Shown piece by piece: positions 2,491 through 30,095 of a stretch of DNA of 45,877 bases; position 1 is the stretch's first letter, and every line of letters begins with the position of its first letter. The stretch is from positions 1 to 45,877 of the IMG/VR virus record IMGVR_UViG_3300022074_000089, one strand, 5' to 3'. The notes below the pieces were generated by a model. The model did not search any database. It had not been told where the DNA came from and worked only from the letters and a program-made list of their open reading frames with translations. The position numbers and the translations under genes are program-made. Origin of the DNA: a virus.

Positions 2491-2922
2491 ATGATCAAGC
2501 TCAAAGACATATTAATGTACGAAGGTACTCGTTGTTGGAAAGGATATGAGAAGAAAGGAATGAAAACGATGTTTGGAAAACGTGTTCCAAATTGCGTTAA
2601 ACGTGAAGCTAAATTACCAGATGAAGGATTTTCAGATCCGGAAGATATGATCATGTATGAGGATGAATTAGGAGAAGATTTAAGAAAGTGGTTAAAACAA
2701 AAATGGGTTAGAATGGGACCTGATGGTAAAATTAGAGGTTCATGCGGCGGAAGAAAAAAAGGAGAAGGCAAACCTAAATGTTTACCATTAGCTAAAGCAA
2801 GAGCAATGGGAAAAAAAGGAAGAGCAGCTGCAGCTAGAAGAAAAAGAAAAAAAGATCCAAATCCAGATAGAAAAGGTAAAGCTATAAATGTAGCTACAAA
2901 ATCTAAAAAGAAAAAATCATGA
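2491..2922 (+). CDS. Putative capsid-targeted basic protein, 143 aa
   Basis: MIKLKDILMYE at the N-terminus is the shared peptide, although here the exact (L/I)xE triplet is displaced. Two blocks follow that I recall as recurrent in marine phage proteins: a CWKGYEKKG...PNC block (Cys15, Cys35) and a GSCGG...KPKCLPLAKARAM block (Cys85, Cys97). The last 50 residues are almost all Lys, Arg, Ala and Gly, so the protein should bind DNA or RNA. That fits an internal protein packed against the genome. The gene has its own late-type promoter and overlaps the next gene by ATGA. Confidence 0.65.
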   Translation: MIKLKDILMYEGTRCWKGYEKKGMKTMFGKRVPNCVKREAKLPDEGFSDPEDMIMYEDELGEDLRKWLKQKWVRMGPDGKIRGSCGGRKKGEGKPKCLPLAKARAMGKKGRAAAARRKRKKDPNPDRKGKAINVATKSKKKKS

Positions 2923-3140
2923 TAAATCTTAAAGACCTATTAGAAACAAATAATCTAGACGAGCTTATTTCTAATCTTGAAGAAAAAAAGAAAAAGAAAA
3001 AAGCAAAACGTGATAAATGTTATTATAAAGTTAAAAGGCGTTACAAAGTTTGGCCATCTGCTTATGGATCATTAGCATTATCTGCATGCAGAAAGGTAGG
3101 AGCAGATGTATGGGGCGAAAAATCTAAAAATAATTCATGA
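2919..3140 (+). CDS. Putative capsid-targeted basic small protein, 73 aa
   Basis: The N-terminus MINLKDLLE contains LLE at residues 7-9 and is a variant of the shared peptide. An uninterrupted Lys block (residues 23-28) precedes a compact domain with Cys34 and Cys57 and the pattern KVWPSAYGS...CRKVGADVWG, a small motif I recall from many marine phage proteins of unknown function. The charge suggests nucleic-acid contact. Overlaps of ATGA on both sides place it in the middle of the internal-protein operon. Confidence 0.6.
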   Translation: MINLKDLLETNNLDELISNLEEKKKKKKAKRDKCYYKVKRRYKVWPSAYGSLALSACRKVGADVWGEKSKNNS

Positions 3141-3913
3141 TTAAACTTAAAGATATATTAGAAGAATCGATAATAGGCGATAAAATTAAATGCGATAACT
3201 GTGGTTGGAGTTGGAAAATTATTGACGGTGGTAATGATTTATATATGTGTCATAAATGTGGACATAACAATACTCCTAAATTAACAGAAAAAGATCAAAT
3301 AGTACAAACAGAAGATCCTAAAAAAATTAAAAAATTAAGGATTATTTTTGCAAATGATACTAAAATTGAAAAAGCATTGTCTGGACTATTTATTCGTTTA
3401 GGTCTTGTTACAAAAACATTTACTTCTATAGCAGATGCAATTGATTATGTTTTAGAATTAAGAAAAGCTGGAGTATCTAATTTAGAAGAATTAGTTATTG
3501 GATCTCATGGAACAAAAACAGGTACAAAACTAGTAGGCTCAGCTGCAAAAGATCAAACTGTTGGTAGAGATTTTGAATATGAAGATGGATCTAAAAAATG
3601 GCATAATTATGATGAAGCTTTACTAATAGCATGTAGAGATTTAATTAGTCCATCTACCAATGTATTTTTTACTGCGTGTTATGGAGCAGATCAACTTAAT
3701 ATTTTAGTACACGCTGCTAATATATTAGGAACAACAGTATATGGAGCAGCTGGTGTTAGTGCGCCTGGATTAAATAGAATATTAAATAAATTCTCAAAAA
3801 AGATTTTTAAATGTAAACCTGCACAAGAAGGTTTATCAAATGATGTGTATCTAGAAAAACAAATATGTTCTAATACAAATTCGCCAATACGATGGTTACG
3901 AGTAAAAGCATGA
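3137..3913 (+). CDS. Putative capsid-targeted zinc-ribbon/caspase-fold protease-like protein, 258 aa
   Basis: Three parts are visible. Residues 1-10 are the shared peptide MIKLKDILEE, with ILE and LEE triplets. Residues 19-41 form a zinc ribbon (Cys19, Cys22, Cys38, Cys41). Residues about 66-215 resemble clan CD cysteine peptidases or DUF4347-like domains: a hydrophobic strand ending ELVIGSHG (His124) and another ending NVFFTACYGA (Cys181). This is the His-Gly then Cys dyad arrangement seen in caspases, gingipains and CHAT proteins. Proteolytic activity is inferred from these motifs only. If injected, it would be a delivered protease acting on host proteins; an inactive binding domain is the alternative. 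Confidence 0.55.
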   Translation: MIKLKDILEESIIGDKIKCDNCGWSWKIIDGGNDLYMCHKCGHNNTPKLTEKDQIVQTEDPKKIKKLRIIFANDTKIEKALSGLFIRLGLVTKTFTSIADAIDYVLELRKAGVSNLEELVIGSHGTKTGTKLVGSAAKDQTVGRDFEYEDGSKKWHNYDEALLIACRDLISPSTNVFFTACYGADQLNILVHAANILGTTVYGAAGVSAPGLNRILNKFSKKIFKCKPAQEGLSNDVYLEKQICSNTNSPIRWLRVKA

Positions 3914-4920
3914 TAAAGCTTAAAGACATATTAAATGAACAATTTCCTAGTATGAATTTTCAGTATCCATCTGCTCAAGCAGCAACATCTATAGAAAAAA
4001 GTTTTAGTCCTATTATTAAAGATGCAATGCAATGGATTAAAAACAACGATCATCTTTTAATAGACATATCAGCTTTAATAGCATCTGTAATACCAGGCGG
4101 TATGACAACTGCAGTTGGATTAGAATTAGCAAATGCTGCTTTATATTTTCAAAAAGGTGACAAATTAATGGGAAGTATATCTACTATATTTGCTGCACTT
4201 CCTATTATAGGATCGATACCTGGAGTAAAACAAGCTGTAGGATTTGCTTTGAAACGAGGAGTTAAATATTCTTTACCTCAAATAAAAAAGATTTTAGAAG
4301 CGGTAGTTAAATTTAAGAATAAAATAATAGGATTGTTTACGCAAATAAAAAGAGTTCCGCAAGCACAAGAATATGCAGAAATGTTACTTACCGGCAAAAT
4401 TGATTATGAAGAATTTGTAGGGTTATTAACATCTTTACCTAAAGCCGGGCAAGTACTCGGAAAAACTGCATTAAAAATTAAACCTGATATGTGGTCTCAT
4501 CAAACAAATAATCTTATTGCATTGCAAAATTGGATTAAACGACAAAAAGTTGTTGGTAGATCTATAGATCAACAAGGCGGATTAAAAAACTTTGATACTA
4601 GTATACAATCGAAAGATAAAATAACTGGTTCTTCATTTGTAACAGCTAGACAAAATGAAGGAACTCCAATGTTTATAAAAGGACGCCTTTATGATAAAAA
4701 TAAGCCTTCTAAATATCTTATGACAACAGAATTGCCAGATAATGCATTTATACCAAATAGAGAATATATTAATTTACCTTCTTTTACTGCTAGTAAAGGA
4801 GCTGGAGTATTAAAACCTACCGAAGCTATTCGTAATATAAAAAATTATAAATTTTGGATATGGGATGAAACAATTCAAAATTATATTGAAATATCTCCAC
4901 AACTATTATTAAAAAAATGA
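3910..4920 (+). CDS. Putative capsid-targeted hydrophobic-core protein, 336 aa
   Basis: An upstream in-frame ATG exists at 3892, but the ATG at 3910 is preferred: it overlaps the previous stop as ATGA and begins MIKLKDILNEQ with the LNE triplet. A long hydrophobic, Gly/Ala-rich region (about residues 45-120, with IPGG, LPIIGSIPGVK) resembles membrane-associating or pretoxin-like segments of polymorphic toxins. It is followed by a basic helical part and a C-terminal domain of about 100 residues rich in Pro, Asn and Tyr that could be the effector part. I recognise no catalytic motif. It could insert into the host membrane during ejection; this is inference. Confidence 0.55.
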   Translation: MIKLKDILNEQFPSMNFQYPSAQAATSIEKSFSPIIKDAMQWIKNNDHLLIDISALIASVIPGGMTTAVGLELANAALYFQKGDKLMGSISTIFAALPIIGSIPGVKQAVGFALKRGVKYSLPQIKKILEAVVKFKNKIIGLFTQIKRVPQAQEYAEMLLTGKIDYEEFVGLLTSLPKAGQVLGKTALKIKPDMWSHQTNNLIALQNWIKRQKVVGRSIDQQGGLKNFDTSIQSKDKITGSSFVTARQNEGTPMFIKGRLYDKNKPSKYLMTTELPDNAFIPNREYINLPSFTASKGAGVLKPTEAIRNIKNYKFWIWDETIQNYIEISPQLLLKK

Positions 4921-7542: not shown

Positions 7543-7950
7543 ATGAAAAAGTTGCTAATTATATTATTATTTCCAATCTCAATATTTTCACAATATATAC
7601 CTGGAGAAGATACAATAATCGTAGATCCTATAAAGTATATGCATGAATTATTAAATGAATATCGTGTAGAAAATGGATTAGACACATTAGCTTTAGATAC
7701 TAATAGAATTAGACTTGCACAAGAATGGGCAGAATATTTAGATACTACCAATCAATTATATCATAGTGGCTATGGTGCTGAAAATTGCTTATATGGATCT
7801 AGATTTACATCTTCTATGATGTGCATAAAAGGTACGTTACGATCTTGGAAAGAATCTCCGGGTCATAATAAAAATTTACTTTATCCAAGTCATAATATTG
7901 TAGGATATGGATATCATGGTAATATTGCCGTAATGCTTTTTGGATTCTAG
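7543..7950 (+). CDS. Secreted CAP/SCP-domain protein, 135 aa
   Basis: A signal peptide (MKKLL, hydrophobic core, IFS then Q at about residue 17) has the '...FSQ' end typical of Flavobacteriia. The mature part has the CAP (SCP/PR-1) pattern: helix LLNEYRVENGL, then a first histidine in YHSGYG, the AENC glutamate, SWKESPGHNKNLL and a final VGYGYHG strand. CAP domains are secreted and bind lipids, cell-wall material or proteins; bacterial YkwD-type members are small as here. A phage copy likely acts in the periplasm or at the cell surface. It has its own early-type promoter, apart from the late operons. Confidence 0.75.
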   Translation: MKKLLIILLFPISIFSQYIPGEDTIIVDPIKYMHELLNEYRVENGLDTLALDTNRIRLAQEWAEYLDTTNQLYHSGYGAENCLYGSRFTSSMMCIKGTLRSWKESPGHNKNLLYPSHNIVGYGYHGNIAVMLFGF

Positions 7951-9869: not shown

Positions 9870-10283
9870 ATGACACATTTTAAAGAAACACTATTACTCA
9901 ATGATTTCGACTTAGTTTGGAAAAACTTTTTCGATCAAACATCTAAATTTTTACCAGTAACATCAAATAAAATGAATTATCCAGTTGATATATTTACAAC
10001 GGATAATGGAATACAGTTTGAAATTGCTGCAGTAGGTTTAGAAAAATCTGATATTGAAATTTTAACAGAAGGAGAAACGTTAAGAGTTCGATACAACAAA
10101 GGCAAAGAAGAAAAACGTGAATTTATTCACAAAGGTATCGCAAAAAGAGCTTTTGATTTTGCTTGGAAAATATCTAAAGAATTAGATTTAACAAAAGCAG
10201 GAGCAGCAATGGAAAAGGGATTGTTAGCAATTGATATTCCATATGCTAAAGATAGAGCACCAAAGCGATTAACAATAAAATAA
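9870..10283 (+). CDS. hsp20: Small heat-shock protein, Hsp20 family, 137 aa
   Basis: An alpha-crystallin domain spans residues about 28-130: NYPVDIFTTDNGIQFEI (beta2-3), AVGLEKSDIEI, then AKRAFDFAWKISKELDL and the hallmark AAMEKGLLAIDIP (the A-x-x-x-x-GLL form of the GVL motif), ending in an RLTIK-type C-terminal I-x-I anchor. Hsp20 proteins hold unfolding proteins in a refoldable state. Hsp20 is a recurrent gene of marine T4-like phages, where it is thought to help virion assembly. It sits alone after a terminator with a consensus Shine-Dalgarno site, suggesting high expression. Confidence 0.85.
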   Translation: MTHFKETLLLNDFDLVWKNFFDQTSKFLPVTSNKMNYPVDIFTTDNGIQFEIAAVGLEKSDIEILTEGETLRVRYNKGKEEKREFIHKGIAKRAFDFAWKISKELDLTKAGAAMEKGLLAIDIPYAKDRAPKRLTIK

Positions 10284-27972: not shown

Positions 27973-29553
27973 ATGTCAGATATCACAGAATATACTGGTG
28001 AATCAGTAAAAGCTTTTAAAAAAGTAAATCCTACTGATTTAAAATTTACTCCAATGCAATTAAACAAAACGTTTTATATGTATTCTGGAAGTACTTCGTT
28101 ATATACACCATTAAACGCATATTATACAGAAAATATACCAGAAAATAATTTAAATTGGGGTGAACAAAATTTAAATGATACATATAAATCAATCATTTAT
28201 AAATCATTGCAACAATTATTTTATAAAGATTCATATGATACGGAAATATTCTTATATAAAACATCTTCTATTTTTAGTATACCTCAAAAGAAAATGGGAC
28301 AAAAAATTAAAGAAGATTCATTTACATATAATAGTGCATCATTAAGTTTAAAATCTAATAGATCTGGAAAAATATTTGATGAAAATATTAATATAGAATC
28401 TTTTCCTGATACATTAAATTTTTATGAAGGATTTAATAAATATTTTGATTCTTCAAATATAACATATGAATCGCAAAATATTAATTATGTTTCTGGAGTA
28501 ACAACGAATAATGGAAATCAACAATCTATAGGATTATCGGCATTATTTTCTGGAAATGGTTATATATCATCTAGTTTAGAAGGAATATATGATAAACAAC
28601 ATGATTATGCAATATCATTTTTTATATCAGGAACAAATAGTACAAATAATGATCAGTTGATATTAACAAAAGCAGATCAAATAACTAGAAGTCCATGTCC
28701 TTTTAATATTGAATTAAGCGGAAGTAATGAAATTAAATTTAGTATACGTGGTAATAATTCTAATTTAATTGCGTTAATAACATCTTCTGCAGACGTTTCT
28801 TCGTCTTGGACTCATGTAGTATGTCAAAAAACTGGTAGTGATATTGAGATGTATATTAATGGAACTAAACATTCATCTGGTAGTTTTGATTTTCTTCGTG
28901 ATAATTTAAATACATATATAAATTCTCCAACATTTATTAATAACAATTATCATTTAAGTATTGGCGGTTATAACACAAATAGCACTAATCTACAAGGATA
29001 TTTAGATGAAATTAGGATTTATAATAAATCATTATCACAATTGGAAATAAGCACTTTATCGGACCGTAGCGAGGGTGGAGGATTATTACAAACAAATATT
29101 GTTGGAAATATATTTTCTGAAAAAGGATTTATTGTTATATCAACTCCAGATTATAGATATAATAATTTATTATCTACAAAATATACTGCAAGTTATCAAA
29201 GTACAATTACATTATATGAAATGTCGACATTATGTCGTGTTGATGCAGGTGACTTTAATGTTACTAATAATCATAGTGCACATAATGATTCAAATATTCA
29301 ATATTTAAACTATTTAACTGGGAGTGAGTTTTCCCCATATATTACATCAATAGGATTATATAATTCGACTGGAACTTTATTAGCAATTGGAAAATTGGGA
29401 CAACCAATAAAAAAACGTGATGATGTTGATATGAATTTTTTAGTTAGAATGGATCTAGACATTAGACCTATTAAATCAGGATCTAGTTTAAATAGTACAA
29501 ATCAAAATTTTAATATAAATAATTCTAATACATATGGAGGATTATCATATTGA
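27973..29553 (+). CDS. Structural protein with LamG-type lectin domain, 526 aa
   Basis: A Laminin-G/concanavalin-A-like domain spans about residues 180-365: LSALFSGNGYISSSL, HDYAISFFISG, SSSWTHVVCQKTGSDIEMYINGTKHSS and LQGYLDEIRIYNKSLSQLEI, which is the canonical LamG_3 ending. The C-terminus (YITSIGLYNSTGTLLAIGKLGQPIKKRDDVDM) matches the end of the preceding protein, marking a shared attachment domain. A glycan-binding virion surface protein is likely. The stop overlaps the TTG start of the kinase-like gene (TTGA). Confidence 0.7.
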   Translation: MSDITEYTGESVKAFKKVNPTDLKFTPMQLNKTFYMYSGSTSLYTPLNAYYTENIPENNLNWGEQNLNDTYKSIIYKSLQQLFYKDSYDTEIFLYKTSSIFSIPQKKMGQKIKEDSFTYNSASLSLKSNRSGKIFDENINIESFPDTLNFYEGFNKYFDSSNITYESQNINYVSGVTTNNGNQQSIGLSALFSGNGYISSSLEGIYDKQHDYAISFFISGTNSTNNDQLILTKADQITRSPCPFNIELSGSNEIKFSIRGNNSNLIALITSSADVSSSWTHVVCQKTGSDIEMYINGTKHSSGSFDFLRDNLNTYINSPTFINNNYHLSIGGYNTNSTNLQGYLDEIRIYNKSLSQLEISTLSDRSEGGGLLQTNIVGNIFSEKGFIVISTPDYRYNNLLSTKYTASYQSTITLYEMSTLCRVDAGDFNVTNNHSAHNDSNIQYLNYLTGSEFSPYITSIGLYNSTGTLLAIGKLGQPIKKRDDVDMNFLVRMDLDIRPIKSGSSLNSTNQNFNINNSNTYGGLSY

Positions 29554-30095
29554 TTAAATTAAAAAACATATTAAACGAAATATCAGAAACTGATGCTAAT
29601 AATTTATTAAATAAAATTAAAAATAAAGAATTTTCATTTGTTGCACAAGGGGATAATGGAAAAGTATATGCAATAAATGGAGAAGATTTATTATTTAAAA
29701 TAACAACAGAGCCAGACGAAAAAGCAGTTGCAGATGTAATTGTAGGAAGGGCATCTGAATTTAACTCATTTATTCCTGTTCATTATTCAGATCCAAAACG
29801 TAGTTTATATATAATGAATAAAGCAAATCCATTATCTCCAAAAGAACAACAAGAAATAAATAAATTTTATAATGGTTATAAAAATTTTTTAAGGCAAGCT
29901 GGCCCAGATGCATCTGTATTTGATTATTTAGATACTGAAGAGACTAGAAATTATTCTCCGGTATTAATTAATTTTATGAGAGCATTACAGCAACATGTAA
30001 GAAAAACAAATATAGGAGATTTACATTTATCATTAGATTTCAAACCAGATAATATCATGAAATGGAATGGTAATTTAGTAATGATCGACTGGTAA
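29550..30095 (+). CDS. Putative capsid-targeted protein-kinase-like protein, 181 aa (TTG start)
   Basis: The TTG start overlaps the previous stop and gives MIKLKNILNE, the shared peptide with the LNE triplet. The remainder is a compact kinase fold: glycine-rich loop AQGDNGKVYAI (residues 32-42), Lys50 in LLFKIT, an alpha-C-like segment about 54-70, hinge LYIMNKANP (86-94), catalytic loop LDFKPDNIM with Asp163, Lys165 and Asn168 (compare RDLKPENIL), and Asp180 in the DFG position. The chain ends one residue later, so there is no activation segment or C-lobe remainder. A phosphotransferase activity is inferred; a pseudokinase or truncated enzyme is possible. Confidence 0.65.
   Translation: MIKLKNILNEISETDANNLLNKIKNKEFSFVAQGDNGKVYAINGEDLLFKITTEPDEKAVADVIVGRASEFNSFIPVHYSDPKRSLYIMNKANPLSPKEQQEINKFYNGYKNFLRQAGPDASVFDYLDTEETRNYSPVLINFMRALQQHVRKTNIGDLHLSLDFKPDNIMKWNGNLVMIDW

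Follow-up and report, generated by a model that had tools for sequence, protein, structure and literature searches.

What kind of protein is encoded at positions 3137 to 3913 of this viral DNA, and where would it act? The stretch that was analysed (45,877 nucleotides; IMG/VR record IMGVR_UViG_3300022074_000089) is referred to below as the window. A preliminary description had divided the 258-residue (aa) product of this open reading frame (ORF) into a leader peptide, a zinc ribbon and a caspase-fold (clan CD-like) domain with a His/Cys dyad, and had proposed delivery by the virion. The ORF, the leader, the ribbon cysteines, His124 and Cys181 were all found exactly where that description had placed them. 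The following features were distinguished:

2919 to 3140, plus strand: upstream leader-bearing cargo gene, basic product of 73 aa, ATGA overlap with the 258-aa ORF
3137 to 3913, plus strand: predicted cargo gene, 258 aa, ATG start, one of several leader-bearing cargo genes in an operon
3137 to 3166, plus strand: leader MIKLKDILEE (residues 1-10), predicted T4-type capsid targeting sequence; LEE (8-10) is a predicted prohead-protease site
3167 to 3280, plus strand: zinc-ribbon module (residues 11-48; Cys19/22/38/41), shuffled among phage proteins
3281 to 3289, plus strand: second predicted prohead-protease site, LTE (residues 49-51), followed by K52; module junction
3290 to 3910, plus strand: caspase-like domain (residues 52-258), predicted mature effector, described by an AF2 model and dN/dS
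3506 to 3508, plus strand: His124, putative catalytic His, first residue past predicted β3 and followed by Gly125
3677 to 3679, plus strand: Cys181, putative catalytic Cys, first residue past predicted β4
3910 to 4920, plus strand: downstream leader-bearing gene, true start at 3910, with a constant N-terminal half and a swapped C-terminal domain

Overlapping ATGA sequences tie the ORF to both of its neighbours (3137-3140 and 3910-3913). The dN/dS ratio over the C-terminal domain is 0.14-0.24, which reflects purifying selection; since the coding sequence is conserved, the ORF is a real gene. His124 is encoded by CAT within ELVIGSHG, and Cys181 by TGT within NVFFTACYGA; the domain contains three histidines (His124/156/192) and four cysteines (Cys166/181/226/244).

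The surrounding genes show several features of their own. The ORFs at 2491-2922 and 2919-3140 encode basic, Lys/Arg-rich leader proteins that match PHROG 727 (unknown function) and are possibly DNA-binding head proteins. The product of 3910-4920 and its counterparts in relatives L002 (8477-9478) and L007 (1140-2279) are conserved to approximately residue 170, while their C-terminal domains vary in the manner of polymorphic toxins and have no Pfam match at their tips. Directly after the cargo cluster, 7543-7950 encodes a small protein with a probable signal peptide and a CAP domain (PF00188, E 2.9e-12); in L003 and L005 this slot is occupied by other proteins, also with signal-like starts. An Hsp20-type small heat shock protein gene is located at 9870-10283 (PF00011, E 4.3e-11). 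Apart from the cargo cluster, a further leader gene with a TTG start lies at 29550-30095; its product has no Pfam match and contains the sequence GDNGKVYAINGEDLLFKI, which resembles a kinase glycine-rich loop.

In phage T4, the first ten residues of internal protein IPIII are enough for packaging into the head; residues 4 and 7 determine targeting and residues 8 and 10 processing, with the prohead protease gp21 cleaving after L/I-x-E (PMC9026906). The leader consensus in the window and its relatives, MIKLKDILxE, fits this rule (L4/I7 for targeting, L8/E10 for processing), and MIKLKDILEE itself carries the key residues 4 and 7 together with an L/I-x-E site at 8-10. The 26 distinct leaders drawn from the window, its relatives and ribbon-bearing contigs have Leu4, Ile/Leu7 and Leu/Ile8, positions that formed part of the search pattern itself; Glu, which was not required, occurs at position 10 in 19 of the 26 and at positions 9-11 in 24. 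Sampled proteins bearing this leader contain zeta toxin, ADP-ribosyltransferase, Nudix, RNase_T and lysozyme domains, and such diversity behind one leader fits injected cargo. Open-access papers yielded nothing on MIKLKDIL leaders and nothing on a caspase in a phage head.

A gp21-type prohead protease (PF03420) is encoded by both large relatives of the window, on contigs of 75.7 kb and 173 kb (E 4e-34 and 8e-34, respectively), which also encode gp23 (5e-77 and 2e-77). The protease was above the cut-off in relatives G001 and G004, the window being a 45.9-kb fragment. The gp23 of this group is closest to that of Flavobacterium phage immuto (59.7% identity), which makes a host among the Flavobacteriia likely; the source is a T4-type marine phage. 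Phage immuto (Immutovirus), the nearest cultured relative by gp23, has gp20, a gp21-type protease and gp23, but unlike the window it has no copy of the gene that could be found in the phage collection. The fit of the leader to the T4 rule, together with gp21 and gp23 in relatives, gives good support to the inference that the 258-aa protein is packed into the head, trimmed and injected. The earlier proposal of virion delivery is thereby strengthened.

Between the leader and the C-terminal domain lies the zinc ribbon. A search with the whole protein returned 73 loci, the majority of which match the ribbon alone, so these were rejected as whole-protein relatives. Elsewhere the ribbon is joined to nucleotidyltransferase-like, HExxH metallopeptidase-like or HAD-like partners, named from motifs read by eye, or forms stand-alone proteins of 53-57 aa. 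Of 29 distinct contexts, 26 have an [LIV]xE tripeptide whose end lies exactly 8 residues ahead of the first ribbon Cys (25 of 28 once a clipped duplicate is dropped), where the background is 1.5% per position; the contexts are homologous, and a binomial value therefore overstates the significance of this placement. Another [LIV]xE follows 6-11 residues behind the ribbon in 16 of the 29. The boundary of the ribbon at [LIV]xE is nevertheless clear.

In the window, the ribbon is bracketed by LEE before S11 and LTE before K52. The version in L003 has no ribbon: its leader, ending in LLE, is joined straight to KDQIV, i.e. at the second site. In L007, leader and ribbon are followed by LTE and then, from a Gln, by the domain that in the window (3910) follows the leader ending LNE. 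These fusions indicate that modules are exchanged at prohead-protease-type sites. The two sites and the L003 fusion suggest that ribbon and C-terminal domain are probably separated by cleavage, and that the mature effector probably comprises residues 52-258. In the three-part layout first described, the ribbon is an independent module bounded by prohead-protease-type sites; a role for it as part of the enzyme was rejected, since it is missing from L003 and shuffled elsewhere.

Other ribbon and fusion proteins were also observed. The stand-alone ribbon proteins (53-57 aa; L024, L036-L062, L064-L074) carry a second kind of leader, MRYIITESQLNxIxE or MKIIVRExQLxRIxE, which likewise ends in an IxE site ahead of the ribbon. 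Some of the longer fusion proteins of related phages, though not all, are enriched in L[NTSK]E. In L009, L010, L012, L014, L016 and L031, long NMNAT-, metallopeptidase- or HAD-like fusions have LNE/LTE tripeptides near apparent domain borders, and it is possible that these are polyproteins cut by gp21.

The C-terminal domain belongs to a small family, with four near-identical members (window, L002, L003 and L004) and one distant version in the identical gene slot (L005/L006; 29% identity). The evidence supports but does not prove that the L005 domain is homologous: there are the 29% alignment and the shared slot, and phmmer gives a weak match (0.013) to one half of the L004 version and none to the window sequence itself. 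In L005, His124 is the sole His kept (His156 and His192 are lost), and Cys166 and Cys181 are both retained, so the putative dyad is conserved in the close relatives as well as in this distant one. The residue following the His is Gly in the four near-identical members (SHG) and Arg in L005 (SHR). The only Pfam match of the L005 domain is to DUF4347 (PF14252) over the His-Cys region, with E = 0.028 and 14.6 bits, under the gathering threshold of 24.6. A pattern set in advance, a hydrophobic strand with [S/G/A/T/C]HG followed by a hydrophobic strand with small-Cys, arose in 16 of 20,000 shuffled versions of the domain. Among 291 ORFs from these phages 3 match it: this gene, its orthologue and one other. 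In L004 (4100-4780) the orthologue is split into two frames by an A run that is one base shorter, through either a sequencing error or a recent loss; since the missing base may be no more than such an error, the idea that L004 shows the gene to be dispensable was rejected.

Searches with the window domain itself revealed no clan CD family match in Pfam, PHROGs, NCBIfam or PADLOC, no match when the window was searched for DUF4347 and Peptidase_C14, and no meaningful match in a sequence search of the PDB. Relatives were absent from tblastn searches of phages and plasmids and from two scans of genome contigs for bacterial versions, and 42 other records with the ribbon, searched by HMM, contained no additional caspase-like domain.

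In clan CD peptidases the dyad is located at the ends of β3 and β4, with a Gly beside the His (PMC4357240). The AF2 model of the domain, built with a 4-row alignment, is of medium confidence (pLDDT 61.6, pTM 0.68) and has the chain order β1-α-β2-α-β3-His...α3-β4-Cys-α-β5. In domain numbering, predicted β3 spans residues 70-75 and is followed by His76, and β4 spans 127-132 and is followed by Cys133. The model was read for the order of elements along the chain, and this order is compatible with a caspase/haemoglobinase fold, in which the sheet order would be 2-1-3-4 with helices α1-α3. Among viral models (Foldseek, BFVD), a metacaspase-like protein was the top match (rank 1), with further metacaspase, caspase or C14 proteins at ranks 5, 6 and 11 and C11 at rank 27. 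In the PDB, periplasmic-binding-like and Rossmann proteins lead and Craspase is at rank 17. None of the fold matches reached E ≤ 0.001, the listed query TM-scores being ≤ 0.42, and nothing came of a single-sequence model (pLDDT 41) or of the fold search run with it.

The element order, the dyad at the ends of β3 and β4, its retention in L005, the weak DUF4347 match of L005 and the viral caspase matches make a caspase-type fold probable in our judgement; none of these lines is statistically decisive. The assignment of His124 and Cys181 as a clan CD dyad thus holds for their placement directly after β3 and β4 in the model, but lacks a significant family match. Likewise, the fold comparison that had been proposed places caspases among the best viral matches, none of them significant, and in the PDB Rossmann-like proteins outrank Craspase. 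We consider the chance that the domain is an active peptidase somewhat better than even.

We favour, with moderate confidence, the view that the product is an effector packaged in the head of a T4-type phage, and that its caspase/haemoglobinase-like domain acts early on a host protein. The 10-residue leader would direct the precursor into the prohead core, where a gp21-type protease would cut after LEE10 and probably also after LTE51. The short zinc-ribbon peptide and the 207-residue C-terminal domain would be retained in the head and pass into the cell together with the DNA, and the domain, through its His124/Cys181 dyad, would most likely cut, or at least bind, a host protein early in infection. 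A more tentative and rather doubtful extension is that such modular polyproteins are packed in the head and cut at LxE by the phage's own prohead protease into separate injected effectors, with leader and ribbon as a removable pro-region. The caspase-like protease would then be freed only inside the closed prohead, leaving the producing cell safe and the virion armed.

Other explanations bear on the activity and the fold of the injected domain. It may have a caspase-type fold without being a peptidase, serving, in an inactive or binding form, to block a host or defence protein or to act as a decoy for it. The Arg that replaces Gly beside the putative catalytic His in L005 would suit this role, polymorphic toxins include catalytically dead caspase repeats (PMC3482391), and certain injected T4 proteins are inhibitors, e.g. 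IPI (PMC3012670); the dyad and the SHG motif are nevertheless intact in all close relatives and under purifying selection, and we regard this explanation as unlikely. We give no greater weight to a head-packaged protein whose C-terminal domain has another Rossmann-like α/β fold, the His and Cys lying at strand ends by coincidence. The leading PDB matches of the medium-confidence model and the want of a family match for the window domain speak for it. The clan CD order of the dyad, the rarity of the pattern among shuffles, the retention of the dyad His alone in distant L005, the metacaspase-like protein heading the viral fold search and the DUF4347 match of L005 speak against it.

An explanation without injection, in which the product is an intracellular late protein or a peptidase that processes other cargo in the prohead, seems very unlikely to us. 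Polymorphic toxins do also use caspase-like domains as releasing peptidases (PMC3482391), and the gene adjoins other multi-part cargo genes. Against this, the leader is common to many unrelated cargoes, these phages already encode gp21, and the processing of cargo is explicable by LxE sites alone.

The favoured head-packaged effector would belong to a known kind, T4 Alt/IP-type cargo with a Tox-Caspase-type domain. T4 IPI-III and Alt, which are capsid-targeted, gp21-processed and injected, similarly have a 10-residue N-terminal leader (key positions 4, 7, 8 and 10), an L/I-x-E site and diverse host-directed cargo, and the phage group of the window encodes gp21 and gp23. Unlike T4 IPI-III and Alt, the window protein has a leader sequence of its own type, MIKLKDILxE, common to dozens of cargoes, and behind it a ribbon and a caspase-like domain, split by a probable second LxE site. 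With clan CD families (caspase C14, clostripain C11, gingipain C25) the domain shares the predicted strand/helix order, the His and Cys at the β3 and β4 ends and the Gly after the His, and with DUF4347 a weak match confined to distant L005; it differs from both in having no significant sequence or fold match in the window version and a C-terminal part of its own.

Among bacterial polymorphic toxins, a caspase-like domain at the C-terminus is a known toxin module (Zhang et al. 2012, PMC3482391). There, as here, the domain is the C-terminal-most part of a modular delivered protein, whereas a phage head and capsid-targeting leader are predicted here to take the place of bacterial secretion systems. 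Polyvalent proteins (Iyer et al. 2017, PMC5512222) are likewise phage-packaged multidomain effectors, and polyvalent-type fusions with the window's ribbon occur in some related phages, but the junctions described here bear gp21-type sites. The peptidases listed in that survey, which covers phage and plasmid proteins, fall into four superfamilies, and the term caspase is absent from its text (PMC5512222).

If the proposal is correct, a head-delivered caspase-fold protease would represent a peptidase class beyond those in the main survey of such cargo. Of the weapons directed against bacterial immunity, phage effectors that act ahead of phage gene expression are some of the least known. Some bacterial immune proteins are themselves controlled by proteases, and a protease delivered in this way could act on bacterial immune proteins. 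Modules bounded by LxE sites also provide a testable, sequence-only rule for recognizing injected effectors in the genomes of T4-type phages.
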